A stretch of 64,000 nt of DNA, from the NCBI RefSeq assembly GCF_965363235.1, contig NC_134839.1:61657560-61721559 (forward strand), read 5' to 3'. Below the pieces are notes generated by a model that ran no database searches, was not told the DNA's origin, and was given only the letters and a program-made list of their open reading frames with translations. Source of the DNA: Mytilus galloprovincialis. Taxonomy: Eukaryota > Mollusca > Bivalvia > Mytilida > Mytilidae. Positions 38,274 to 63,225 of this stretch are shown one piece after another; the first letter of the stretch is position 1, and each line of letters opens with the position of its first letter. Made by a program: the position numbers and the translations under genes.

Positions 38274-39383
38274 TTATTCACCCGAATCTATTTTTTGTTT
38301 ACTTGCACTGTGCAATGATTCCGACTTGAAGGTACATAAGACATGGACCACTTTCTTAACAGTATTTCTAAACGGCATAGACAGCCAGCTGAACATAAAT
38401 AATGTAACTGGAGTGTTGGAAATATTAAAAATATTAGTAATTATTGATAAATATTGAGTAAAATCATTGAGCGTTGATTCTTCGGAAATAGTTTGAAGCA
38501 AGGGAAATATAATAGTCGGTGCAGACGAGATCACATAGAAAGCTGTAACTGCTGTTGTAATTATTGATATCCTTTCCAAAGAAGAAACGATATTAGATTT
38601 AGTTATGTTATTATTCTTTCTAAATTTCATCTGTTGTCGTAATTTGCAAATCGTGAGGATGCTTAAAACAACAAAAAATAAAACAGGTAGGAAACCAGAA
38701 AACACAATTTCTGTAATATGAAGAAATTTATATCCGAATTCATTTCTCTTATTTTTGCTAGAAAAAGATGAAGCATCCCTGCATACAGCGATCACTTCTC
38801 CACTTTGTTTATCAAGATGAAAAACCTTTTCAAAATCTATTAAAAGAAAACGAAAGACGGCAAAACCAAAAGATAAAAAACACATTATAGTTACATAAGA
38901 TGCAACTTTGATGTTAGTAAAATAGCTTTTATAAGTGAACGGCTTTTCCAAAATTATGTATTTCTGGAATGATTGTAAAACTTTTAACCATTGGGAAAAT
39001 GAAAATAGAAATCCTGGCATTAAGGTAGCCCCCATCTCAAATACATAGCAGCATTCATACTGAACGTAATTCTCTTTTAGAGATAAAGCTGATATTAATG
39101 TTATGTCTTGTATTACAAAGCAAACAAGATCAAGGCTTGTATATATCGCCATAATACCACTCTTCTTTATAAAGTCGTTTGACTTTAGTGACCGAAGCAA
39201 AATTATTTGCCAAGTTATAAAAATGACGAGCAGAATTGGCAGGATATACAGGTAGTACTTCTTCGACAACTCATCAGTGGACCTTTTTGGAGAAAAATAC
39301 AGAACTTCCATAAATGCAGTTCCTTCTTTAGCAACCACGTGACTGAAGCCCTTCATAAAGTCCATAATGCTATTCGATGTCAT
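38274..39383 (-). CDS. GPCR-A: rhodopsin-like seven-helix receptor, intronless
   Basis: 369 residues from MTSNSIMDF to KIDSGE on one exon. Predicted helices: about 43-63, 75-100, 111-136, 159-182, 222-247, 271-296 and 309-332. Class A landmarks are present but altered. SLDL around residue 85 stands at the helix 2 aspartate. C111/C112 can pair with C201 in the second outer loop. QKY at 140-142, followed by LEKPFTY, replaces the usual DRY-PLxY. NTPVTLF near 323 replaces NPxxY. A serine/basic tail follows. As a plasma-membrane receptor it should couple to a G protein, but ligand and coupling cannot be read from sequence. The missing arginine of DRY could mean altered basal activity. It fits the lineage-specific, intronless peptide-receptor-like expansions known in molluscs. 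A near-identical paralogue (GPCR-B) lies downstream, broken by a transposon. Confidence 0.9.
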   Translation of the reverse strand: MTSNSIMDFMKGFSHVVAKEGTAFMEVLYFSPKRSTDELSKKYYLYILPILLVIFITWQIILLRSLKSNDFIKKSGIMAIYTSLDLVCFVIQDITLISALSLKENYVQYECCYVFEMGATLMPGFLFSFSQWLKVLQSFQKYIILEKPFTYKSYFTNIKVASYVTIMCFLSFGFAVFRFLLIDFEKVFHLDKQSGEVIAVCRDASSFSSKNKRNEFGYKFLHITEIVFSGFLPVLFFVVLSILTICKLRQQMKFRKNNNITKSNIVSSLERISIITTAVTAFYVISSAPTIIFPLLQTISEESTLNDFTQYLSIITNIFNISNTPVTLFMFSWLSMPFRNTVKKVVHVLCTFKSESLHSASKQKIDSGE

Positions 39384-43950: not shown

Positions 43951-44495
43951 TAATGCGAATATAAATGACCACCAAGGCGAATATAAATGACCACCAGGGC
44001 ATATATAAATGATCACCTAGGTCTATTGTCACCAAGGCATATAAAAATGACCACATAGGTCTATTGTCACCAAGGCATATATAAATGACCACCTAGGTCT
44101 ATTGCCACCAAGGCATATATAAATGACCATCTAGGTCTATTGCCACCAAGGTATATACAAATGACCACCTAGGTCTCTTGCCACCAAGGTATATATAAAT
44201 GACCACCTAGGTCTATTGCCACCAAGGTATATATAAATGACCACCTAGGTCTATTGCCGACAAGACATAAATAAATAACCACCTAGGTCTATTGCCACCA
44301 AGGTATATATAAATTACCTCCTAGGTCTATTGCCACCAAGGTATATATAAATGACCACCTAGGTCTATTGCCACCAAGGTATATATAAATGACCACCTAG
44401 GTCTATTGCCACCAAGGCATATATAAATGACCACCTAGGTTTATTGCCACCAAGGTATATATAAATGACCACCAAGGTCTTAAAGTCACCAAGCG
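43951..44495. repeat. 38-bp minisatellite, about a dozen copies
   Basis: Unit reads 'ccaccaaggtatatataaat' then 'gaccacctaggtctattg'. Copies vary by single bases (ggcatat/ggtatat) and the left edge is more diverged, so the array grew from the middle or right. Open frames across it are by-products of the repeat. Confidence 0.9.
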
Positions 44496-47333: not shown

Positions 47334-47740
47334 TTATTCACCCGAATCTATTTTTTGTTTACTTTTGCAATGAATCCGACTAGAAAACAAGACATGAACC
47401 ACTTTCTTAACAGTATTTCTAAACGGCATAGACAGCCAGCTGAACATAAATAATGTAACTGGAGTGTTGGAAATATTAAAAATATTAGTAATTATTGATA
47501 AATATTGAGTAAAATCATTGAGCGTTGATTCTTCAGAAATAGTTTGAAGCAAGGGAAATATAATAGTCGGTGCAGACGAGATCACATAGAAAGCTGTAAC
47601 TGCTGTTGTAATTATTGATATCCTTTCCAAAGAAGAAACGATATTAGATTTAGTTATGTTATTATTCTGCCTAAATTTCATCTGTTGTCGTAATTTGCGA
47701 ATTGTGAGGATGCTTAAAACAACAAAAAATAAAACAGGTA
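47334..47740 (-). pseudogene. GPCR-B, carboxyl part (split by transposon)
   Basis: Open frame homologous to residues 232-369 of GPCR-A: end of helix 5, helices 6 and 7 and the tail. It is nearly identical up to the last 20 residues, where HVLCTFKSES is replaced by HVLFSSRIHC before the shared SKQKIDSGE. Within helix 5, cysteine 246 is arginine. No stop or frameshift is present up to the insertion point at 47740, so the gene was intact when the element arrived. As it stands, this part lacks a start and helices 1-4. Confidence 0.88.
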
Positions 47741-48170
47741 CACTACCAATAATTTACCTATACTTTTTTGGTACATTTCTACCCTCGTGCATATCAGTAC
47801 TGTTAGGAAAGACTGAAAACTTATAATGTTATACTTTCAATGAAATCAGTACTGATTTTGTCAGTACTGTTTCAGTACTGATTTTGACAGTACTGTTTTA
47901 GTACTGATTTTGACAGTACTGTTTCAGTACTGATTTTGACAGTACTGTTTCAGTACTGATTTTATCAGTACTGTTTCAGTACTGATTTTGACAGTACTGT
48001 TTCAGTACTGATTTTGTCAGTACTGTTTCAGTACTGATTTTGACAGTACTGTTTCAGTACTGATTTTGTCAGTACTGTTTCAGCACTGATTTTGTCAGTA
48101 CTGTTTCAGTACTGATGTTGACAGTACTATTTCGGTATTGTTATTTTCAGTACTGTTTCAGTAGATTTTG
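47741..48170 (+). repeat. Left terminal inverted repeat with 26-bp subterminal array
   Basis: The first 110 bp are unique terminal sequence; from about 47846 a 26-bp unit (CAGTACTGATTTTGACAGTA then CTGTTT) repeats about 11-12 times with small variants. Each unit holds two AGTACTG words, and AGTACT is itself palindromic. Such arrays serve as transposase binding sites in CACTA elements (family knowledge). Confidence 0.9.
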
Positions 48171-48578
48171 TGTTGTTAATCTTTTTAACTTGAATGTGTA
48201 TTGTTTCAAAAAATATTTGGAACTGAAAACTTTTAAACTCGGTAAGTATAGTATGCTATATAATAATGTGTGGCATATTTTGTATCTTTTGTAGATATCT
48301 CTGATTAAGTGTTCATCATTAGAGAAGTTTTTACAATGTGCATCTCAGTACAATTGGTATCCAAATATAGGTTTGATAATTCTGTGACAATATTATTATT
48401 ATCCTTTTTTAGCTGGTTACGTTTTTCTCTATATCACCCTGCTGCGCAGATTTTTTTAGCGACGTGAACATGACCAAGGAAAATTATCAAGCTTACTTTC
48501 GTCTATCGAAATACTATTGAAGCGAAGGAGAAAACAACAGAATTGAAGCAAGATAAGCAGTTTATCGGATTTTACCCA

Positions 48579-48902
48579 TTAGGAGCACCTGAATTCACTC
48601 CCGGTTTTTAATGGAGTTCGTGTTGTCTTTTATGTATTTTTCAAAGTGTTGTTGTAAATGCCCTTTCGTTTTGTGATTCTTTGCTTACTTCTTGATTTTG
48701 GTTGTGACTGTCTTTCAGTGTTTATAAAAAAAATACGCATTAGGAGCACCTAAATTCACTCCCGGTTTTTAATGGAGTTCGTGTTGTTTTTATATATGTA
48801 ATTTTCAATGTGTTGTTGTAAATGCCCTTTCGTTTTGTGATTCTTTGCTTACTTATTGATTTTGATTGTGACTGTCTTTCCGTGTTTATAAAAAAAATAC
48901 GC
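48579..48902. repeat. 161-bp tandem duplication, two copies
   Basis: 'aggagcacctgaattcactc' at 48581 returns at 48742 as 'aggagcacctaaattcactc'. Both run through 'ctttcgttttgtgattcttt' to 'ataaaaaaaatacgca'. Few differences, so fairly recent. Confidence 0.88.
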
Positions 48903-49708
48903 ACTCGACATCAGGAAGATTCACACTGTGACTCGAGGCTGATATTTTACAGTATCAATTGTATAATAGCGCATAATTTATAAATATATCAAACAAGATT
49001 AGAATCTTCAATACTGTTCATTTTTTGGTATTTTGCTATTGCTTAAAATATGTTGTAATTAATGCAGTTATATGTTACTATGTTAGGCAATGCATTATAA
49101 TCAACACAAAACAATCTCTCGATTACCTTATTTTTAATCATAACTGGAATTTCTTTTATTTATCATAACCATTTTTTAATATATAAAAAACATTCAATGT
49201 CATACCAACATGTGAAGTTTGTGGCAAAAATCTCTGTGATTTTTACGCCCCTTGGTTATTTTATGACCCTTTAAAGCTCATAAATAAAATAATCAAAGTA
49301 ACAATTAATTTTGCATGTATCATGTTTCATTGCTCTCCCCCTATGCCATCTTTTCTTTGGAATGCTTTGTTGAATGTCAGTTTCCTGGCTCTTTTCCTCA
49401 ATTCAGTCCCGGATATGATGCGTCTTTTTACATGTACAGTGGTAATTCAAGAGGACACTTTAGTTCTAATATGAGCTCATTATAAGCATCCACCTTTAAT
49501 GTTTTGGTACTTGTACGAAACTCAGGATTCAATGGTTCATGATCAAATGATGGGTTTTTTTTTCCTGATGAGTGCCATATTGTCTAGATACATCATATTG
49601 TTTATAGGTCTTCAATTTTCACATCGAACATTCCCATGTCTGCTTCTGTCTCCATTGCTGTTAATCATTCTGAGGAAAGAAAATGTTATGAATTTATAAA
49701 TAATAAAA

Positions 49709-49800
49709 TTGAGAATGGATATGGGGAATGTGTCAAAGAGACAACAACCCGACCAAATAAAAAACAACAGCAGAAGGTCACCAACAGGTCTAGGCTACAA
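49709..49800 (+). repeat. Family III repeat, truncated
   Basis: 'gagaatggatatggggaatg' to 'aaggtcaccaacaggtct', matching the start of the copy at 12845. Confidence 0.75.
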
Positions 49801-50299
49801 TAAATTATCTTATGTTAAAACTTTCCTCATTTCTGTGTTATGTAAAAATAAAAAGAATGCACAATTATGGATGGGAATGGTATGAAAATCAAAATTTACT
49901 TATTACTTTATATACTACCATAAGTCCCGTTATCACTAATGGACTGGACTTCTGATACTACATGTATATATAATATTTTAATCAATCAAAGTTGAAATTT
50001 GTTTCTGAATAAAAAAAAAAGAGGAAAATATGATAATTTAATTCATCATCATCAAAGTATTGGTGTTTGCCAGTGGCAAGTATTTCATACACGTGTATCT
50101 TTAACCATCGGTCTATTTATGTGCTCTTTATAATAAGATCCGTGAAACAACGACGAAAGACATTAAAATATATACTAACTACTTTATACAAAAGTACATG
50201 TAATGTTTAATAGATTGAAGTGGAAATTTAATTTAATTGAAAATTTATCGTACATAGTCATATATGTAGCACCTAGCCAGAGATGTAATACATCTATCT

Positions 50300-51150
50300 A
50301 TGGTAGCACACAGAAACGTGTCCGATTCCTCAAAAACGTGTCAATGATTTGATAAACATGTCAAATTGCACTGGCGAAACCACTTCTGCGGGACGCCGGT
50401 CGAGCAGTACCCTCATAGACATACATTTTGTAAAAAGACATTTATAGGCATCACCGGATAATATTAAAACAATAGAATTTACCCACTATTTATAAACGAT
50501 GATTTAAACTTTACAAAACTTATTAAATGCAATGTTAATGGGTTTTTTCTAAATACGCATGACATATTTGCCACTGGACATTAAGTAATCAATAGTTAAT
50601 TATGTGTTGTAAACTTAGCCTGCAGTTATGCTTGTTATGAATTACATTTGCTGAACAAACTAATGTTTATCAATGACATACAGTAAACGTGGTCAAGCAC
50701 CGGGAATAAAATACAATATAAAATGTACATGATGTATTAGTTTTCTAAATTGTGAAGTACCTCTGTCTGAACTTTATAATAATAATAATCATATTGATAA
50801 AGAAAATCATAAATTAAAGCGCTTCAAATAAAAATAACTTTTTATTGTGCATTTTACTCTGTGTCTGCAAGCAGAAGAAAGCGTGCACAGTGTAGCATAC
50901 CTTGGACATTTGTCTGTACGGATTACTAAACCTTTCCTCTAGATTTTTTTTGGGCACCTGCTTCGACTTTTTTTTTCTAATCATTTACAATCCAACCGAA
51001 CAATACGGGTTCTATCGTATCCCACACCATTAATATTGAATTGCGTTTTTACTTTACAGAGTATCATTTGGGGTATATGAGTTGAAATATTCTGGCGTTT
51101 TTAACCGGACACATTCTTAAATTATCGGACACGTTTTTGAGATTGTAACA
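50300..51150. repeat. Inverted-repeat-bounded segment
   Basis: 'aaacgtgtccgattcctcaa' and 'aaaaacgtgtc' near 50316-50342 face 'atcggacacgtttttgag' near 51124-51141. These may be ends of a roughly 850-bp element; the interior is AT-rich and uncoding. Borders are not clean. Confidence 0.4.
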
Positions 51151-51204
51151 ATACAAAAGAGGTTATTGTCTTAAGTCAGGAGTTTGGTATTCTGTAGTTG
51201 GTTT

Positions 51205-51395
51205 TCAAGTTTGAATGGTTTTACACTAGTCACTTTTGGAGCCCTTTACACCTTGCTGTTCGGTGAGAGCTCATGCCGGCACGGTGTTGAAGACCGTACT
51301 TTGACCTATAATGGTTTACTTCTACAAATTACGACTTATATGAACAGGAGACTTTTCTCATTGGCCATTATACCACATCTTCTTATATATTAATA
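51205..51395 (-). repeat. Family I repeat, reverse copy
   Basis: Reverse complement shows 'aagaagatgtggtataatgg', 'ttataggtcaaagtacgg', 'tcaacaccgtgcc', 'gaacagcaaggtgtaaaggg' and 'actagtgtaaaaccattcaa', in the family I order. Confidence 0.75.
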
Positions 51396-51455
51396 CCACT
51401 CTGAGCCACCCAACCCATCCACCCCAATTACTCGTTTGTGAGGGCTGCCTAGAGT

Positions 51456-51614
51456 CAGAGGTGGATTTAGGGGGGGCTGGAGACCCGCCCCCCCCCTTTT
51501 TGGAAAAAAAATTGGTTGCTTATATAGGGGAATCATTGAAGCGTAACTGGAGCCGGCCCCCTCTTAGGTCAGTCACTGGCCCCCAACTCATGTAAATTTC
51601 TGGATCCGCCACTG
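51456..51614. mobile_element. 159-bp hAT-like MITE
   Basis: Left CAGAGGTGGATTTAG, right CTGGATCCGCCACTG; AGAGT duplicated on both sides (51451-51455, 51615-51619). Interior has C and G runs. Same family as 12140-12363 and 54292-55569. Confidence 0.8.
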
Positions 51615-51882
51615 AGAGTGGTTACACCGGGCCAAAAATGCATCGGACTGAAACAACATACTGGTTGTGTACACTGACAATCAAATTAAAATTAAAATAA
51701 TGTATAAAATATTGTAAAAAATAATTTTTCATTTGAGTGCATTTACGTAACAATAACACAATGTAACCGTAGACATAAATATCATTGTTACACTCGTAAG
51801 TATTCTATGTAGTTCCTTAGTCAACCCTAGGTCTGCATTCCGGCGATATAGCCTAAACTTCATTGTAACAATAACTTTTTAT

Positions 51883-54165
51883 ACGACCGCAAAATTTGAA
51901 AAATTTTTCGTCGTATATTGATTGCTATCACCTTGGCGTTGTCGTCGTCGTCGTTGTCGGCGGCGTCGTCGTCCGGCGTCCGAATACTTTTAGTTTTCGC
52001 ACTCTAACTTTAGTAAAAGTGAATGGAAATCTATGAAATTTTAACACAAGGTTTATGACCACAAAAGGAAGGTTGGTATTGATTTTGGGAGTTTTGGTCC
52101 CAACATTTTAGGAATTAGGGGCCAAAAAGGGCCCAAATAAGCATTTTCTTGGTTTTCGCACTATAACTTTAGTTTAAGTTAATAGAAATCTATGAAATTT
52201 TGACACAAGGTTTATGACCACAAAAGAACGGTTGGGATTGATTTTGGGAGTTTAGGTTTCAACAGTTTAGGAATTAGGGGCCAAAAAAGGGCCCAAATAA
52301 GCATTATTCTTGGTTTTCGCACAATAACTTTAGTTTAAGTAAATAGAAATCAATGAAATTTAAACACAATGTTAATGACTACAAAAGGAAGGTTGGTATT
52401 GATTTTGGGAGTTTAGGTCCCAACAGTTTAGGAATTAGGGGCCAAAAAGGGACCCAAATAAGCATTTTTCTTGGTTTTCGCACCATAACGTTAGTATAAG
52501 TAAATAGAAATCTATGAAATTTAAACACAAGGTTTATGACCATAAAAGGAAGGTTGGTATTGATTTTGGGAGTTTTGGTCCCAACAGAATAAGGGGCCCA
52601 AAGGGTCCAAAATTAAACTTTGTTTGATTTCATCAAAATTGAATAATTGGGGTTCTTTGATATGCCGAATCTAACTGTCATGACTGTGCATGTAGATTCT
52701 TAACTTTTGGTCCCGTTTTCAAATTGGTCTACATTAAAGTCCAAAGGGTCCAAAATTAAACTTAGTTTGATTTTGACAAAAAATGAATCAGTTAGGTTCT
52801 TTGATATGCTGAATCTAAAAATGTACTTAGATTCTTGATTATTGGCCCAGTTTTCAAGTTGGTCCAAATCGGGGTCCAAAATTAAACTTTGTTTGATTTC
52901 ATCAAAAATTGAATAAATGGGGTTCTTTGATATACCAAATCTAACTGTGTATGTAGATTCTTCATTTTTGGTCCTGTTTTCAAATTGGTCTACACTAAAG
53001 TCCAAAGGGTCCAAAATTAAACTTAGTCTGATTTCAACAAAAATTGAAATCTTGGGGTTCTTTGATATGCTGAATCCAAAAATGTACTTAATTTTTTTTA
53101 TTATGGGCCCAGTTTTCAAGTTGGTCCAAATCAGGATCTAAAATTATTATATTAAGTATTGTGCAATAGCAAGTCTTTTCAATTGCACAGTATTGCGCAA
53201 TGGCAAGAAATATCTAATTGCACAATATTGTGAAATAGCTAATTTTTTTTTTAATTAGAGTTATCTTTCTTTGTCCAGAATAGTAAGCAAGAAATATCTA
53301 ATTGCAAAATATTGTGCAATAGCAAGATTTTTTTTTAATTGGAGTTATCTTTCTTTGTCCAGAATCAACTTAAATCTTTGTTATATACAATATACAATGT
53401 ATATTCACTTTTTACTACCAACTGATAAATTATAATAAATAACATTCAGTGATAACAAGCAGTTTTTTTTACATCTTAACATTTTATGATGTATTTAAAT
53501 GAGTAGTTATTGTTGCAAACTCCATTAGAAATTTTAATTGAGATTAGTTTTGGAATAAGGGAAAGGGGGATGTGATTGAAAAAATTGGGTTCAATTTTTC
53601 TCATTTGAAATTTCATAAATAAAAAAGAAAATTTCTTCAAACATTTTTATGCCCCACCTACGATAGTAGAGGGGCATTATGTTTTCTGGTCTGTGCGTCC
53701 GTCCGTCCGTCTGTCCGTTCGTTCGTCCGTCCGTCTGTCCCGCTTCAGGTTAAAGTTTTTGGTCAAGGTAGTTTTTGATGAAGTTTAAGTCCAATCGACT
53801 TCAAACTTAGTACACATGTCCCCTATGATATGATCTTTCTAATTTTAATGCCAAATTAGAGTTTTTACCCCAATTTCACGGTCCACTGAACATGGAAAAT
53901 GATAGTGCGAGTGGGGCATTCGTGTACTGAGGACACATTCTTGTTTTGAGAGGATTAATATTCAACAGCATAGTGAATTGCTCTAAGAGAAAACAAAAAT
54001 TTTAAGTTCATTAGAACACATTCATTCTGTGTCAGAAACCTATGCTGTGTCAACTATTTAATCACAATCCAAATTTAGAGCTGAATCCAGCTTGAATGTT
54101 GTGTCCATACTTGCCCCAACCGTTCAGGGTTCAACCTGCGGTCGTATAAAGCTACGCCCTGCGGA
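51883..54165 (+). repeat. Long internally repeated mussel-type element
   Basis: Opens TATACGACCGCAAAATTTG and closes near GCGGTCGTATAAAGC and 'gagcatctggttt'; TATACGACCGCA and its mirror are near the ends. Inside are four units of about 160 bp starting 'ttttcgcactataactttag' (51994, 52151, 52311, 52473), then four blocks with 'gtccaaaattaaactt' (about 52605-53030), then two copies of 'ttatctttctttgtccagaat'. A second element is nested at 53648-53948. The long - strand frame at 52700-53119 is a repeat artefact. I recall this element as very abundant in mussels; its class is not clear. Confidence 0.75.
53648..53948 (+). mobile_element. Nested short element with CCGT-rich block
   Basis: Opens 'tatgccccacctacgatagt', has a run of CCGTCCGT/CTGTCCGT words, and ends 'gagtggggcattcgtgtact' then 'gaggacacattcttgttt'. 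GCCCCAC near the left is mirrored by GTGGGGC near the right. It interrupts the element at 51883-54165. Confidence 0.65.
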
Positions 54166-54291
54166 GCATCTGGTTTACGACTGTTACATTTCAATGTAAC
54201 CATAGCCAGTACCAAAATAAAATAGAAATTCAAATATTTCACAGACATCTTTATTTACAATATAAAAATAGGAAGACTGTTGAATGATTTT

Positions 54292-55569
54292 CAGTGGCGG
54301 ATTCAGAGGGGGGCATTTTTTGTAAAATGATTAATCAGACTAGACTTCGTGAACTTTGCCATTTCCCGAGTATTTAATTTTTATACGACAATTCTTTACT
54401 TTTTTCGCTGGCCGGTATTTACTGATTGTCAAAGTCATGTGATTTGCTATGGTGGAGTTGACCAGTGCGTTGAAAAAACGGCACTCGGTCATTTTGAAAT
54501 TCAAATTACAGTAATACACATTGCTTAGGCTGAGGTTGTCATGACAATCAGGAAACCTTCAAAGCGACACAGGATTGAACAAGAACGTATTGACTTCTAT
54601 TTCATTATTCCACTAAACAGAAAGTAATGGTAAATACTCTATAGACTATTACACTCTCATGAAAAAAAAGTTCCACAACATTATTTACCTACGAAAACAT
54701 GTTTAACAAATTGAATAATGATCCCCAGTCAGTATAAGCTCTAGAAAGATTTCAAGTCTCAGGTACGAACCATTTGATTTGAGGAGGCAGTCTGAGATAT
54801 TTGAGAGAGAAAAAAAATGACTGATTCTTGCCTGAAACAAAAATTTTGGCCGTATCTGGATTGAAAACAATAGTCTTGTCCACTTTTTTGCTATTAAAAG
54901 CTAAAATTTCCAACAAAAATATTTAGCATGAAATGAACATGATGAATAAAAACGGGTGTATTTTTTTGTGGCCGGGGTTTGCATGTCTGACTGGAATGTC
55001 TGTTTTGCCGGACTTATATATATTGAATACTTTTTTCAAGACCAGACTGCATGCAACCTGCCTACTAGGTGTGACTTTTATGTCTCCATTTGTTGACCGT
55101 CATTCATAACTTCGTTGTCATTTCAGACACGTTCGTAGTCTTTGTTGGATTTGGAACCCCTCACTTCGGTTCCCTAAGTTATGTTGGGTGAAACATTTTG
55201 ATAAAAACTGCTTGTTTGTCTTTTTTAACTCGTGTCGGTCGTATTGTAAATTTCATCTAATTTCCATGTCTATTTTTTACTGACAAGTCCTACATCAAAT
55301 ATATCAGTACATAGCTTTGGATCAATACTATCATTTTATGATAGACAATTAATAGGGAGAATACAGCATAAAAAATGTCCAACCCTTACACTTTACAGCA
55401 ACTATAAAATATGCATGCCCCCAAGCCAGAAACCGTTTAAATAGTGCATATAACACTTATTTTATGTTTTTTTTAGCCCAAAAAAGGTCCCAAAACATTT
55501 CCGACTCGCTCCGCTCGGCAAAATTTAATATCTTCGCCCCCCCTTTCAAAAATCCGGGATCCGCCCCTG
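54292..55569. mobile_element. 1.28-kb hAT-like element, non-autonomous
   Basis: CAGTGGCGGATTCAG at the left and GGATCCGCCCCTG at the right; ATTTT duplicated at 54287-54291 and 55570-55574. No transposase frame in 1.28 kb. The 5-bp duplication matches what repeat libraries call hAT5; the superfamily name is an inference from the CAG-GGCGGAT ends. Confidence 0.8.
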
Positions 55570-55869
55570 ATTTTTACCACATCAAATGCACAATGAGCAA
55601 ACCCATATATCGCATTGCCCAGATCGCATAGTATGCTAAAAAAATATTAAAAAAAAACAGAAGTAACGGAAATGTTGTTGTTAAATCATTTCAAACGAGA
55701 TCACTCCCCTATATATAAAAATATACATATATGCAGCAACAACTGAACAGCAACAAACACAGCAGTCAATGTGGCGAGATGAAATAATTTTCTAGGCACC
55801 TAGGATTTATATATATTAAAATGTTTCCCAAATTAAATGAAGCATTGGGCCCTATAAAAAAAATCCTGT

Positions 55870-56000
55870 CAAAATAGGAAACACATTTTTAAAAGGGGGT
55901 TCCAAATCTGGAGATAGGGTTTCCAAGTAGATTTCCCTTTTCAAATTTATGCATTTATCGTAAAAAAGGGGTCCAACCTTCGGACCCCCTTCTTACGCCG
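55870..56000. repeat. Truncated hAT-like fragment
   Basis: 'aaaagggggttccaaatctg', 'gatagggtttccaag' and 'aaaaggggtccaaccttcgg' resemble the interior of the copy at 12140-12363; ends missing. Confidence 0.5.
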
Positions 56001-56195
56001 AGGGGTGTACCGCACCTCCCTTTATCCAATCATATGTTTAGAAAGTCAGGCTGATCATTTCACAAATATCAATTTGACAAATATTAATACTATAATCTAT
56101 TTAATAAGGTTTGGCAAAGAAGTAATAATAATATGCATATCCAAAACAACCCGCGATTTTATACCTATTTTGACATTTACAGAAAGTTCTGTAAC

Positions 56196-56600
56196 CAGAG
56201 GCGGATCCACCCATTGTTTTAAAAGAGGGTTCCAAACACAGGCACTTGTTTCTATCCATACGAAGGTCGACTATCCATAGTCGACCTTCGTATGGATAGA
56301 AACTAGTCCTATAACATATGACTTCGCATTCTTATTCAATTTTTAACGTTTTTATACTGATATTTCCAAATATTTTTTTTGGCACATTGATAGTAAAAAG
56401 AAAATATCAGAACAGCAAATAGAAATAGTAAATAATGCCCCCGAGGTCATATGTTATAGGACTATATAGGATAGAAACAAGTGCCTGTGGTTCCAAACAC
56501 TCTGGATAAAAGGAAAAAGGGGGTTCCAACTCAGTCCCCTAAAGATTTCATAATTATAGCGAAAAAATGGGGGAAATAAAATATTTTAAGTAGTATTATA
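56196..56600. mobile_element. hAT-like element interrupted by a palindromic MITE
   Basis: Left end CAGAGGCGGATCCAC, then 'aaagagggttccaaacac'. The text breaks at 56240 for a 247-bp insertion and resumes 'gttccaaacactctggataa'. The right end cannot be placed. Confidence 0.6.
56240..56486. mobile_element. 247-bp MITE with nested 56-bp palindrome
   Basis: Ends AGGCACTTGTTTCTATCC and GGATAGAAACAAGTGCCT are exact 18-bp mirrors. GTTCCAAACAC occurs at 56229-56239 and 56490-56500, an 11-bp direct repeat with three extra bases on the right side. Inside, 56248-56303 is a palindrome with 27-bp arms around CC, and 'tcctataacatatgac' is mirrored by 'gtcatatgttatagga'. Confidence 0.8.
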
Positions 56601-56789
56601 TAGAATAATGCATTGAACGTCCAAAATAATTTGGTGTTCCCACCCCAGGAACCCCAGGGGTCCCACTGTGTAACGCGTATTCTGCTTTTTTAACTAACGT
56701 AATATGTTTTGAATTAGCTATATGCTACACTTTTCTCAGTTTTAAAATATTCAATGTACTACTATACCTTAATCTACCTCCCATTGTGG

Positions 56790-57167
56790 TATTCAATCCA
56801 GAAGAAGTTTGAACTGTTGAACTGTTGAAATGTCAGTGCGAGTGCAAAAATAACGTTTGTAAACAATGAATGACGTCATGTGTAAATCCAATCACATAAA
56901 CGTTTTACAATAGGCAATTGTATGTTCCATATTGACGCGCTTTTGTGATGACGATAATAACATCAACGGCAAAATTTGAGACAACAGTAGATCAGCCAGG
57001 AAGGATAGGATACAGAAATACAGCAGAGAAAATATCGGTTTACCAGCCACTTGCAGAAATTCTTAAAGTTACAGAAAGAGACGATTGTTACAACAAGTCA
57101 GAGATGGCGGATCCTTTTCGAATCATCTACGGATTGCTATTGTTCATGTATGTTTTACAAGTCAAAT
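56790..57167 (+). CDS. Possible captured promoter and first exon inside the transposon
   Basis: A less AT-rich stretch with a perfect cAMP-response-like TGACGTCA at 56871-56878, then an open frame from the ATG at 56948. An internal ATG at 57104 in good context gives MADPFRIIYGLLLFMYVLQV, a fair signal peptide. A GT (T|GTAGGC) at 57168 would end the exon in phase 1. No downstream exon found before the family II repeat begins at about 57230. Could be a host first exon carried by the element, part of its own gene, or chance; I cannot name a family. Confidence 0.3.
56871..56878. promoter_or_regulatory. TGACGTCA (CRE-type octamer)
   Basis: A perfect palindromic CRE octamer about 70 bp before an ATG. 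In bilaterians this binds CREB/ATF factors; an octamer can occur by chance, so function is unproven. Confidence 0.4.
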
Positions 57168-57229
57168 GTAGGCTATGTCTTCTTCCATCACAAGTTCATT
57201 CGATTTACATATATACATATATATATTTG

Positions 57230-57870
57230 TTTATAAAAAAAGGTGCCGTATTATTGCCAACGACACAACAACAACAGCAACAACATATATTTTATTTGCC
57301 AATCATGGCACCCAAAATGAGTGGAATAATCACAACTCTCCACAACAGATCAGATGACCAGAAATTAACAAATATAGGTCACCATACGGCCATCAATAAT
57401 GAGCAAAGCCATATCGCATAGTCAGCTAAAAAAAGACAACAAAATGACAAATGTCAACGAATTCAAACAAGAAAACTAACGTTCTTATTCATGTACAAAA
57501 ATGAACGAATAATGAATATATATGTAACACACCAACAAACAACAACCACTGAATTACATGCTCCTGACTTCGGACAGGAACATATATATACAGAATGTGG
57601 TGAGGTTAAACATGCTAGGGTCTTCCCCCTAAACCTGGAACAGAGTTGTAACAGTACTACATAACAAAAAACTATAAAATTCAGTTGAAAAAGGCTTATT
57701 TAACTTTAAATAACAGCTGAATGCAAATAGAAATACATCTCAGTAACAAAAACATAATGGACGTTACCGTTACTCAACAAAAAAAGTCACTAAATACAGA
57801 TCTGAGAGTACTTGCAGTTACTGACAGCTAGTTCAAAGCCACTAACAACTAATAACAAAAATCATGCATC
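57230..57870 (+). repeat. Interspersed repeat, family II, long copy
   Basis: 'ttattgccaacgacacaaca', 'aaatataggtcaccatacgg', 'ctcctgacttcggacaggaa', 'gtggtgaggttaaacatgct', 'tgagagtacttgcagttact' and 'gacagctagttcaaagcc' follow in order. The longest copy in the window. Confidence 0.75.
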
Positions 57871-57874
57871 TAAC

Positions 57875-59940
57875 TTCAAAGACTTAGTTCATAGTTTTTT
57901 TTATACTTCTGTTGATTATATTTAATCTTAGTTTTTTCCTTCTGTTAAAAAGAGATTAAATAACAGACGCAATGTTCAACAAATTTGTTTAAAGATGGCA
58001 AATTTGTGTTACATTCGTTTAATTTATAATAATACACACAAACTAAAGAGACAGAAAGACAAAGTTTGTCTCCAACGACAAGCAAGAATAAACCAAGAAA
58101 CAGAAAACAGACAATTTTTCAATGTCCTATTTGGTTGGCTTTCATATTATTCCCATTGTTGTTATAAAGTGGACAGAAGCAATGAAGAATCGATAATAGT
58201 GTGGTGCTTGAATATGAAGAAAAGAGAATAACAGGCAAAATTAATGATAAAAAGTGAAAAATGATATAGAATATTACAGAATACAGAAATGAAGAAACCA
58301 CTTCCAGACCAGACCCTTTTATAAGTTGCACATTTTTTTTAATTTTTTTTTTTGCCTTTTAAATCTTTCTTTGGACACCATATTGGTCCGACACCCCAAT
58401 AGCATGACGCCCTATTAGTCCGACGACCCATTGGACCGACACACGAATACTAGTAATCCGACACATAATTATTGAGCAATACTTTGTATGAATAATATTT
58501 ATATTTTAAGAGGATAATCCCCATAGTTTAAAATGATCCTACTGAGATTCCTCAAAATAATAACATATTAGAGTACATGTATTAAAAATTTGCTTTATGT
58601 CCAGTGGCAAATATTACATGTTCAAATCAATTGTTAAATAAGTTCAATAGGTAAGTCCTGTAAAAGATGTCATCTGGGGTGAAAGAAGGTCAATGAAACT
58701 TGGACTGCCACTGGACAACGAAAGCATATTGAAGGTGGACAGGAATTTGCCCTGCTGCATATTCAGACAAAAGGCCACCGACGGCCTCTCAAAGAGTTGT
58801 TGCAATAGTTATTAACCTGCAGAGATCATGACACTCTCTTTCTATACATGCTATATGAGGCATCCGATTAAAGGTGACCAATCTTACATTTGTTGAAAAT
58901 TAAACATCCCGCACAATTTTACTACCAATGGTTTTACTGTTTTTACTGTATCACATAAACATTATCCGTTGTGATGACTGACTTGCACTTCTGGTGACAT
59001 TTTCTTAGTGAGAATGTGTTCACATATGGAACATATCTTGTCCTTATGTCCCACGTAAGTGTCATCAATAACTCCTGAACCACTTTACAGAATTTTGTAA
59101 ATCATCGATACAAACTTTATCTCATGATGTATTTTTTCAAAGGACAATTTACAAAGTGTTACGTCCATAATTAATACCATAACATGCATGTTGGGAAAAA
59201 CAACTTTTTATAAATGCATGCACAGTATTTGATGCAGTATGATCTATTGTTATAGGTATCTAAAAATGGATCCCACCAGAACACAAAGACTAAGTCTATG
59301 AGGAAAATAAAGTTTTAGATCAACGACTAAAAATTGTCATGAACAGATAAAATATGAGATAGAGATAGAACTGGTATGAAAGGTGACAGTAGAACATTGA
59401 AATAATTTGAAAGGTAGGTATATATATAGTTTTACACTCAATTATGATTTTTTTAAAGTGAGTATATGCAGTTATTCCTATTATTTTATTTCAATATCAT
59501 GAAATGTTGTAGTGTGTTCATATGACAACAAACCAACAACGAGCAAGTTCAAAAAAATAAAGAGTAGAAATACAATTCTTCAACAATTGAAATATATCAT
59601 TAAAGTTAACAAAGAAGTCTACGGGAAGTACATATCCGTACACACAACTTCTCATTTAACTGTTTCACAGATTGCATTGATATTGTGCTCGAATAATCAG
59701 ATTATATTAATACATATGTGTTTTGTTGCCGATCCAAAGATGTCAGAGTGTTACAGCAGGACATAGTTGAACTTAGGAACCTAAAGGAAATATAAACAAA
59801 GATCTCCTTCTCTGTAACCGAATAACAGATTTAAAAGATAGTAATTTATTATAATGAGAATTTCCACTGGTACTTATAATGAAAAAATTCACAAAAAGAA
59901 TACTTTTGTTTAATTTTTAAACTATTGCATATGTATAAAA
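57875..59940. other. CACTA-like element interior, right-middle
   Basis: Holds short 'ttggtccgacacc'-type words (58378-58455) and a segment 58590-58810 with 'tccagtggcaaatatt' and its mirror 'actgccactggacaacg'. The latter reads like a mussel repeat. Frames at 57995-58231 and 59512-59766 have no family motif. Confidence 0.4.
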
Positions 59941-59944
59941 TGAT

Positions 59945-60130
59945 AAAAAGTTGTAGGATTGTCACTAAGACAACTATCCACCAAATTTGAGACGATGTGA
60001 ATGTGAACAATAATATACAACTCTGCAGACTTCAACAATGAGAAAACCCATACCGTATTGTCGGCTACAAAAGACCATGACATAAACAATATATGAAACA
60101 ATTTAATTCAGAAAAATTAACGACCTAATT
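59945..60130 (+). repeat. Family II fragment
   Basis: 'ttgtaggattgtcactaaga', 'caactatccaccaaatttga' and 'gagaaaacccataccgtatt' match family II order. Confidence 0.55.
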
Positions 60131-62060
60131 TATAACAAAACAAATTAAAAATGTTTAAAAGTGCAGCCCGTATTGAAAACATGGATATTTGCCATGAACC
60201 CAGACTTGGGACGCTAAAATTCTTCTCCAAATCGTATAAGATCAGGCCCTGAAGTCATACAAAATTTTCTCAGTGCCCGGAGAAAAAAAATCGTGGTCAA
60301 AAATTGAAATCCAGCATTTTGATTGGTTGATTTGTTGATTTTGGAGTTTGCGTAAACAACTGACTCGAAAGTTTAATGACTTCAAGGCCAGTTTTCAAGT
60401 AGGTAAATCAAACATTGTTCCATTTTTTTTCTTTCATTTTTCTCCCTGTATAATATAAACCTTGTATAATTAACGTTATACCACCTTTAGCAATGCATGT
60501 ACACTGATTCACATAATGTCATGGTTGACCTATGTTTAATCTTATTATTGGACTAAAACAAAATGATAAATGTTATAATCCACTTTTTCCTTTCCAGAAA
60601 CAAGTTGGCAAAGATATATATCACATGCATAGGAAGAGCAATGGAAAATAACATTGAAGCAGAATTATGAAACAGTTATTAAAAAAAAACATTAATTGAG
60701 AGAAAGAAAAACACATTTTTTTACTTTTTAATGCTGTTCATTCTTAAGATTACTGTTTATTGTATTTCGATGGAAGTTATTGCAGTTGATAAGAAGATAG
60801 AACAAAAATTTGAGTTCTTCAACTTGTTTTATTCAGTCAATAAAAATTAATTTTGAAAAGCAAACCATATATGTTCAAAAATCAAAAAGGTTAATTATGT
60901 ACCAAATGACCTCCGTCAGACATTAATCAGTCTGTTGGAAATCTTTCTTTAAATTTTTATGCTTATTTTACAAAATGTACCTTTGTTTGTATGTCTGTAA
61001 GATTCAAATCAATCAGAGATTTCTGAGGAACTACAAACCAAGAGTTTCTGAAAGTCATCAGTCCTCATGTGAACATGCTATACTGAGTAATGTAGTTCTC
61101 ACCCTTTCAACTCCCCGTTAAAACGGGATGCCTAAATATTGTAGCACTAAATTTCATATATTCTTTTCGTAAAATACGCTCTGCAGTTTTATAGGAAAGA
61201 GTACAAGAGTTATGCATACATGTATTTAAGTTACTATTCACAATACACTCATTACAAGTGAATGAAATTGCAGCATGATTAATGTATACAAAAAAAAAAG
61301 AAATCTGTCAATAAATGTATTTAACCATTAAAAATCTTACATTGAGCATATGATTGGAAATTTATTTATGAGAAGTTAGACTAAAAAAAGTGGTCGTATT
61401 CTGAATATTCGCTCAGCTCACAGTAAAAGGAGAAAAACATACACTGTTCAGTCTGAAGGTACCTGTTCATGTAGGGGGACATGTCTTATAGCAGATTCTC
61501 TCCTTGTGGTGAACTAGCATGTTAAAAAGGAGCTCAGTGCATTATTGGTCTAGTTCTGTACAAAATATGTTAATTACATTGTATTTATATCTGAGTATCA
61601 TGTCCTCTTCCTGCACTTAACTTGCCACTGGATCACATAACATCAATCCATCCACCCATCTTCTCAAAAGTAATATATCGAGTTCCAATGTTCAATATGT
61701 TCTGATATGACTCAAGCAAGATATAAATACATGTAATATGGTATTGTCAAATAGAAGTATTAATAAGTATTAAAAACATAAACCTTGTAGACCACACAAG
61801 ATGCAATTCTGACAATAAATATGACATAAAGCCAGAATATTTAAAAAAAAAGCTAAAGTAACTGTCGAAGAGCTGGATCTAAAGCTGAACCACTTCAGGA
61901 CAACAAAAATCAGAGAAATAAAAAAAAACATAACGAAAACATTAACATGTCACGATAAAGAAAATGAATGGAAATGGGGTAAGTGTCAAAGAGAACAATT
62001 AACCCACCCCAAATATACAAAACAACTAGGCATCACTATAAAGATACAGTCTGATTTAAA
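60131..62060. other. CACTA-like element interior, right
   Basis: AT-rich, no gene recognised. A family III start lies at about 61957-62030 ('aatggaaatggggtaagtgt'). Confidence 0.4.
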
Positions 62061-62063
62061 AAG

Positions 62064-62532
62064 TGTTATAATGAAACAGTACTGAAGAAATTAGTAACGA
62101 AACACTACTTACGAAATCAGTACTGAATCATTACTGACGAAATCAGTACTGTCAAAATCAGTACTGAAACAGTACTGTCAACATCAGTACTGAAACAGTA
62201 CTGACAAAATCAGTACTGAAACAGTACTGTCAAAATCAGTACTAAAACAGTACTGTCAAAATCAGTACTGAAACAGTACAGTCAAATTCAGTACTGAAAC
62301 AGTACTGACAAAATCAGTACTAAAACAGTACTGTCAAAATCAGTACTAAAACAGTACTGTCAAAATCAGTACTAAAACAGTACTGTCAAAATCAGTACTG
62401 AAACAGTACTGACAAAATCAGTACTGATTTCATTGAAAGTATAACATTATAAGTTTTCAGTCTTTCCTTACAGTACTGATATGCACGAGGGTAGAAATGT
62501 ACCAAAAAAGTATAGGTAAATTATTGGTAGTG
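62064..62532 (-). repeat. Right terminal inverted repeat with 26-bp subterminal array
   Basis: Mirror image of the left end: about 12 copies of the AGTACTG-based unit (62090-62430), then the 100-bp unique tip ending AATTATTGGTAGTG. One base differs in the tip compared with the left end (GTTAGG/GTAAGG). Confidence 0.9.
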
Positions 62533-63225
62533 TAGGAAACCAGAAAACACAATTTCTGTAATATGAAAAACTTTATATCCGAATTCATTTCTCTTATTTT
62601 TGCTTGAAAAAGATGAAGCATCCCTGCATACAGCGATCACTTCTCCACTTTGTTTATCAAGATGAAAAACCTTTTCAAAATCTATTAAAAGAAAACGAAA
62701 GACGGCAAAACCAAAAGATAAAAAACACATTATAGTTACATAAGATGCAACTTTGATGTTAGTAAAATAGCTTTTATAAGTGAACGGCTTTTCCAAAATT
62801 ATGTATTTCTGGAATGATTGTAAAACTTTTAACCATTGGGAAAATGAAAATAGAAATCCTGGCATTAAGGTAGCCCCGATCTCAAATACATAGCAGCATT
62901 CATACTGAACGTAATTCTCTTTTAGAGATAAAGCTGTTATTAAAGCTATGTCTTGTATTACAAAGCAAACAAGATCAAGGCTTGTATATATCGCCATAAT
63001 ACCACTCTTCTTTATGAGGTCGTTAGATTTTAGTGATCGAAGCAAAATTATTTGCCAAGTTATAAAAATGACGAGCAGAATTGGCAGGATATAAAGGTAG
63101 TACTTCTTTGACAACTCATCAGTGGACCTTTTTGGAGAAAAATACAGCACTTCCATAAATGCAGTTCCTTCATGAGCAACCAGACTGAAGTCCTTCAGAA
63201 AATCCATTATGCTTTTCGATGTCAT
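62533..63225 (-). pseudogene. GPCR-B, amino part (split by transposon)
   Basis: Open frame matching residues 1-231 of GPCR-A (helices 1-4 and the start of helix 5), with small differences near the start (MTSKSIMDFLKDFSLVAHEG). The reading continues into the transposon tip and stops after HYQ, because CACTACCAATAA supplies an in-frame TAA, giving 234 residues. No inactivating change in the host part itself, so the break is due to the insertion alone. If transcribed, it would make a truncated receptor that cannot signal alone. Confidence 0.88.

Follow-up and report, generated by a model that had tools for sequence, protein, structure and literature searches.

Non-autonomous DNA elements are usually tiny, with a miniature inverted-repeat transposable element (MITE) usually under about 800 bp, and transposition by cut and paste is generally considered less efficient for longer units. 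Here, we analyze a 64,000-nucleotide stretch of the Mytilus galloprovincialis genome (contig NC_134839.1, positions 61,657,560 to 61,721,559; hereafter the window, numbered from its first letter), in which a 14,792-bp element with terminal inverted repeats (TIRs) interrupts a seven-transmembrane (7TM) receptor gene. This element most likely belongs to a family of non-autonomous cut-and-paste DNA transposons of giant size.

Like MITEs, this family is non-coding, carries TIRs flanked by TA and has short members. However, the window element measures 14.8 kb, and 19 of the 24 paired elements of the family are at least 10.9 kb long, with a conserved core of ~10 kb in those that were read. Maverick/Polinton elements have a 6-bp target duplication and viral-type genes; here, the duplication is a 2-bp TA, and the family copy A13 contains no Pfam family.

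Among plant CACTA (En/Spm) elements, Tgmt* of soybean resembles the window element in its CACTA tip, its subterminal inverted or palindromic arrays, its large size (20.5 kb, with 24 repeats in one border) and its insertion in a gene, but it has a transposase gene, and its target duplication is the 3-bp ATA (PMC2613891). In that paper, the CACTA tips and repeats of Tgmt* are termed cis-determinants of transposition, and the repeats are proposed to be bound by a protein that the transposon encodes (PMC2613891). In animals, the TRC element SmTRC1 is alike in having a 2-bp target duplication, inverted repeats and truncated derivatives, but it differs in its CCC... tips, its length of 4.5 kb and its Transposase_21 gene, and the 2-bp repeat accompanies 7 of 14 copies (PMC1636069). 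Large retrotransposon derivatives (LARDs; PMC6431247) also carry a long and not necessarily coding interior between mobile ends and move in trans, but these are retroelements with long terminal repeats, whereas the window family is a TIR DNA element with a TA duplication. KolobokP is likewise a DNA transposon group rich in bivalves, with solo or short forms; it has long terminal direct repeats and codes for two proteins (PMC9587614), whereas the present family has inverted repeats and no protein family was found in it. ISL2EU (PHIS) elements duplicate AT, as A/AT/T, rather than TA (PMC4482050).

Among the matches listed in a search of open-access titles and the starts of abstracts, a scope that leaves subscription papers and repeat databases outside, we recognized none as describing the family. 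The family tip was looked for in PMC10045372 and was not found there. A curated bivalve library is reported to hold two CMC consensus sequences (PMC10294476).

A giant inverted-repeat element splits one of two tandem receptor genes

An earlier note on this DNA had described a 14.8-kb TIR element inside a receptor gene, and our analysis confirms this observation. The element spans 47741-62532, with no strand assigned, and its junctions are exact (...ACAGGTA/CACTACC...GGTAGTG/TAGGAAAC), with one copy of a TA target-site duplication on either side (47739-47740 and 62533-62534), as seen both from the ends and from the empty site. The two arms, at 47739-48128 and 62145-62534, comprise 390 nt each including the TA and are 97% complementary, with a single mismatch in their outer 110 bp. 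The left TIR (47741-48128, plus strand) consists of a 105-bp tip plus array sequence, and it is mirrored by the right TIR (62145-62532, minus strand). An array of a 26-bp unit starts 105 bp inward in each arm; the left array (47846-48171, plus strand) contains 12.6 units built on CAGTACTG palindromes, and the right array (62072-62427, minus strand) contains the identical unit in inverted orientation. The outermost 700 bp contain 21 occurrences of CAGTACTG at one end and 20 at the other, and the intervening 13.4 kb contain none. The ends, the TA duplication and the coordinates are exactly as the earlier note gave them. No open reading frame (ORF) longer than 161 amino acids, measured from stop to stop, lies wholly within the element, so its description as having no visible transposase also holds.

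The interrupted gene is a single-exon 7TM receptor ORF on the minus strand, with its 5' half at 62535-63225 and its 3' half, which matches Srw and 7tm_1, at 47334-47740. Joining the flanks with one TA gives a single frame of 382 amino acids, and the broken copy contains no other in-frame stop. An intact tandem paralogue (38274-39383, minus strand; 369 amino acids from its ATG) serves as the empty site; the joined site (300 nt) agrees with it at 98% across 300 of 300 positions. The two loci, one intact and one split, form a tandem pair that is alike over ~1.6 kb at 91-95%. The split of a receptor gene by the element is therefore borne out, but the assignment of that receptor to the GPCR-B class is not. 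The receptor halves match the Pfam families Srw, 7tm_1 and Serpentine_r_xa, the latter two below cut-offs, and the intact paralogue scores above cut-offs for Srw (E 2e-10) and 7tm_1 (E 1e-8). Judged by these scores, the receptor is rhodopsin/Srw-like and not GPCR-B. A comparison of the receptor with the Protein Data Bank gave no match at E 0.1.

A second empty site is provided by another copy, E3 (L015/L016), which lies inside an array of a 58-bp satellite. The satellite is in register only when exactly one TA is removed together with the element (identity 0.86 versus 0.59 and 0.56).

A family of giant copies with a restricted target

The 20-mer formed by TA and the tip, TACACTACCAATAATTTACC, has 51 exact matches in the 1.385-Gb genome and the reversed control has none, which rules out a chance inverted repeat. 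A G-tip lineage (CACTACCAAGAATTTACY) contributes 47 tips with TA, and a pattern for C- and A-tips gives 20 matches, again with no match for the controls in either case. Tips with a base other than A at position 8 are as frequent as their controls (9 matches versus 9), and three of them resemble the family.

The 127 listed tips include 24 facing pairs within 60 kb, of which 19 are at least 10.9 kb and five are 0.5-4.8 kb, although the longest pair, at 58.6 kb, may not be one element. Sixteen elements were read whole, namely 11 giants (the window copy and ten others) and five short ones. The giants measure 11-19.5 kb and carry 12-27 CAGTACTG palindromes per 700-bp end, with none or one in the middle. 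The family anticipated in the earlier note thus exists: its members are giant TIR elements that are flanked by TA and show no visible transposase. The contrary outcome, in which the tips occur only at this locus, did not arise.

The short copies (0.5-4.8 kb), which include members of 532, 822 and 1,384 bp, are internal-deletion or MITE-like derivatives. One 1,043-bp copy (L048:1503-2545) has a full left end and only ~16 bp of the right end before its flanking TA; faulty gap repair leaves internal deletions of this appearance, and the copy may have arisen in that way. Five T tips (L040, L044, L047, L048 and L054) have interiors unlike those of the giants, and none of them holds an ORF longer than 116 amino acids in 1.5 kb. 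An ORF of more than 121 amino acids is likewise absent from a 1.5-kb middle slice of a 14.9-kb C-tip element.

All 22 ends of the 11 giant copies are flanked by TA. We compared the preceding base in 49 distinct T-, G- and C-type tips, where the two ends of an element are counted separately and most tips were fetched with patterns that require TA. The base before TA is C in 21 tips, A in 14, G in 14 and T in none. In the window, T precedes 32% of TAs, so the chance of observing none in 49 is 5e-9 if the tips are independent. Because T never precedes the TA, the preferred site can be written V-TA-B (VTA read from either side), and C is three times commoner there than in the window. When TA is not required, 50 of the 52 exact CACTACCAATAATTTACC tips (18 bases) still follow TA, these two counts having been compared by hand.

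A shared core without coding signal

The earlier note had taken the interior for a mosaic of a dozen other repeats. Comparison of the 11 giants reveals instead a collinear core, with 8.4-10.2 kb of each copy present in at least eight of the ten others. In the window copy, 10,192 of 14,792 bp belong to this class, so the interior is mainly family sequence. The left part of the core lies at 48734-51883 (48734-49700 and 49792-51883 being present in at least eight of ten other copies) and the right part at 55568-62425 (with 55568-56239, 56489-57196 and 57209-62425 likewise present); neither has an assigned strand, nor do the two segments between them. One of these, at 51888-54315, is an insertion of 2,428 bp that is private to the window copy and aligns to none of the ten others, and the other, at 54316-55567, is common to only two to seven of them. 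The private insertion starts near ATACGACC and contains a CGTC-rich stretch as well as 161-bp and 126/261-bp tandem repeats. Its appearance suggests a distinct repeat family nested within the element.

We reject a hidden multi-exon gene on the basis of two features of the variation in the core. Only 81 of the 462 distinct indels are multiples of 3, and the best 3-base periodicity of substitutions (chi2 10.4) does not exceed the shuffled mean (10.7). Twelve translations of copy A13 (six frames, with stops as X) match no Pfam family at E 0.01. Structured RNA and tRNA are also rejected, since copy A13 has no Rfam match at gathering scores and ARAGORN finds no tRNA in the 64-kb window. The longest ORFs of the 11 copies, of 469 and 732 amino acids, lie in a private insert of copy K10, and one of them has a reverse-transcriptase match. 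Separately, an open frame of 191 amino acids (L014:2548-3120) is common to copies D10 and E3, with a similar one in K10; it has no Pfam match.

An 800-bp core probe (window 58900-59700) matches 46 pieces, which reduce to 36 places; the merging was done by hand, with ten pieces assigned to elements already counted, one of these pieces (C3:34294617) being 25 kb from its partner. Of these places, 27 lie on the inner side of a listed tip and no more than 30 kb from it, compared to 0.2% of random places. Nineteen of them belong to T tips (92-100% identity) and eight to G tips (85-90%). In a 3.0-kb G-tip copy, L067, the left-hand 2.9 kb of the core are retained at 76-87%. The simplest reading of these identities is that the core was already in place between the ends when the T and G lineages had yet to diverge. 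Captured host genes, which the earlier note had raised in calling the elements carriers, find no support, given the lack of a Pfam family in the six frames of copy A13 and the location of 27 of 36 core places inside tip-bounded stretches.

Near-identical copies at unrelated sites

Over 8.9-14.2 kb, the 55 pairs of giant copies differ by 0.24-3.39% substitutions. The closest pair, D10 (contig C10) and E3 (contig C3), align in a single block of 14,211 bp with a divergence of 0.24%, and their 400-bp flanks are unrelated. The two copies have one extra stretch in common, which contains the 191-amino-acid frame described above. Judged from this pair, the whole 14.2-kb unit moved recently and in one piece. 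More generally, with copies only 0.24-3.39% apart, the enzyme that moved them would have acted recently.

Candidate sources of the transposase

The leading explanation for this movement, which we nevertheless hold tentatively, is that the family is a true CACTA/CMC non-autonomous giant, mobilized by a Transposase_21 element with tips that our list does not include. The subterminal palindrome arrays and the size resemble those of soybean Tgmt* (PMC2613891), and in 10-11 of 13 positions, allowing one gap, the tips agree with the plant CACTA tip CACTACAAGAAAA (PMC7210773). Random 18-mers reach 11 positions of the plant tip in 57 of 200,000 cases, but random tips that already start with CACTA reach 11 positions in 3.7% and 10 positions in 14.6% of cases, so the likeness beyond CACTA itself is weak. 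Scoring all 58 of 58 candidates, we find 49 Transposase_21 matches in the genome, which could supply such an enzyme. However, the nearest lies 128.8 kb from any of the 127 listed tips, with one match on a contig that has no tip. The target duplication can be read both ways. Two base pairs fall within the 2-4 bp range given for CMC elements (PMC4482050) and outside the 3-bp rule of plant CACTA, and the palindromic TA is invariable, unlike the duplication of SmTRC1. Furthermore, the animal CACTA-related elements described in PMC1636069 begin with CCC, as does Spongebob of Hydra (PMC4298943). The term CACTA-like used in the earlier note is therefore plausible but unproved: the tip, arrays and size speak for it, and membership is not established because of the missing Transposase_21 partner, the strict TA duplication and the CCC tips of the animal relatives.

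Less likely, but still a serious possibility, is that the mobilizer comes from a transposase group that the three profiles do not cover. This group might be an undescribed one, with TA lacking a preceding T as its target. Searches with the three profiles yielded no partner even though the copies are so little diverged, and the avoidance of TTA (0 of 49) has not been matched to a described group. The force of these negatives is limited by partial coverage, since 150 of 764 DDE_3 candidates (Tc1) and 150 of 179 DDE_1 candidates (pogo type) were scored, a partner may escape detection because introns break matches or because it scores low, and tips with more changes are not all listed.

Some Tc1-like ends start with TACACTACC, and strict TA flanking at all 22 ends fits Tc1, mariner and pogo elements, so we also considered a mobilizer with a transposase of this (IS630) type. 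We regard it as unlikely. Among the 150 DDE_3 candidates scored, a single one comes close to the family, 6.0 kb inward of a G tip (C3:48449383), and it is rejected as the mobilizer because it belongs to a Tc1 element in its own right, bounded by different inverted repeats; the next lies at a distance of 126 kb. None of the 143 DDE_1 matches lies in the 24 paired elements; the nearest is found 25.5 kb away on the outer side of a tip, and the second nearest lies 29.2 kb to the inside of an unpaired G tip. Long arrays and a length of 11-20 kb would also be unusual for Tc1/mariner, given that mariner elements are 1.3-2.4 kb (PMC1636069).

Finally, a segmental duplication or assembly artefact is highly improbable in view of 11 sites without flank-to-flank matches between copies, the exact TA duplications and the two empty sites.

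A proposed model of mobilization in trans

Taken together, these observations support our assignment of the window element to a family of giant non-autonomous TIR transposons, for which a CACTA-like affinity comes first, another transposase type next and Tc1/mariner third. We propose that the transposase would be supplied by another element, so that mobilization occurs in trans. The ~105-bp tip is a putative cleavage site for this enzyme, and the ~20 CAGTACTG palindromes per end are a putative docking site for the transposase or its helper protein. The enzyme, which may be of CACTA (CMC) type or another TA-targeting type, would excise the unit and insert it at a TA whose preceding base is not T. 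The long core appears to be tolerated as ballast, carried along by the ends from a time before the T and G tips diverged. At the receptor locus, the insertion interrupted one member of the tandem pair.

Several points weigh against this model. No autonomous partner was found among the scored matches, so mobilization in trans is unproved, and the binding of protein by the palindromes is something that we infer. Eight pairs of 13.9-58.6 kb were not read whole (three were read 1.5 kb inward from both ends and one by a 1.5-kb middle slice), and these could hide a coding copy; they are located at C1:61111789, C1:65053964, C1:66887480, C5:64747655, C6:81192517, C7:42333175, C9:43812094 and C9:92340285. 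Nine of the 36 core places have no listed tip nearby (eight at 86-90% identity and one 191-bp piece at 95%), and thus core DNA may also occur outside intact elements. In addition, two T-type tips, at C4:43804165 and C4:43805806, lack a preceding TA; they have the same orientation and are 1.6 kb apart.

A bolder proposal, which we consider doubtful but worth stating, is that the family is a DNA-transposon counterpart of LARDs. Its normal, propagating form would be non-coding and 11-20 kb long and would have persisted while at least two tip lineages separated (85-90% identity in the core), and it would still jump intact, moved by a TA-not-TTA transposase with CACTA-like end recognition. Such a system would be undescribed in animals.

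A recently moved family in which 19 of 24 paired elements exceed 10 kb, without coding signal in the copies read, raises the question of what the long core does. An alternative question is whether a synaptic complex formed with ~20 palindromes per end is very tolerant. Because one of two nearly identical tandem genes carries a fresh 15-kb insertion, the locus offers a ready natural test of insertion polymorphism in this species.

Other repeats and elements

The Tc1 element near the G tip at C3:48449383 (L068, ~426-1770) carries an open transposase frame of 337 amino acids that matches DDE_3 and HTH_Tnp_Tc3_2. Its tip, CAGTACTC, has seven bases in common with the subterminal palindrome of the giant family, possibly by chance. 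In the window itself, an array of a 38-bp unit occupies 43955-44480, with ~13 copies at 92% matches.

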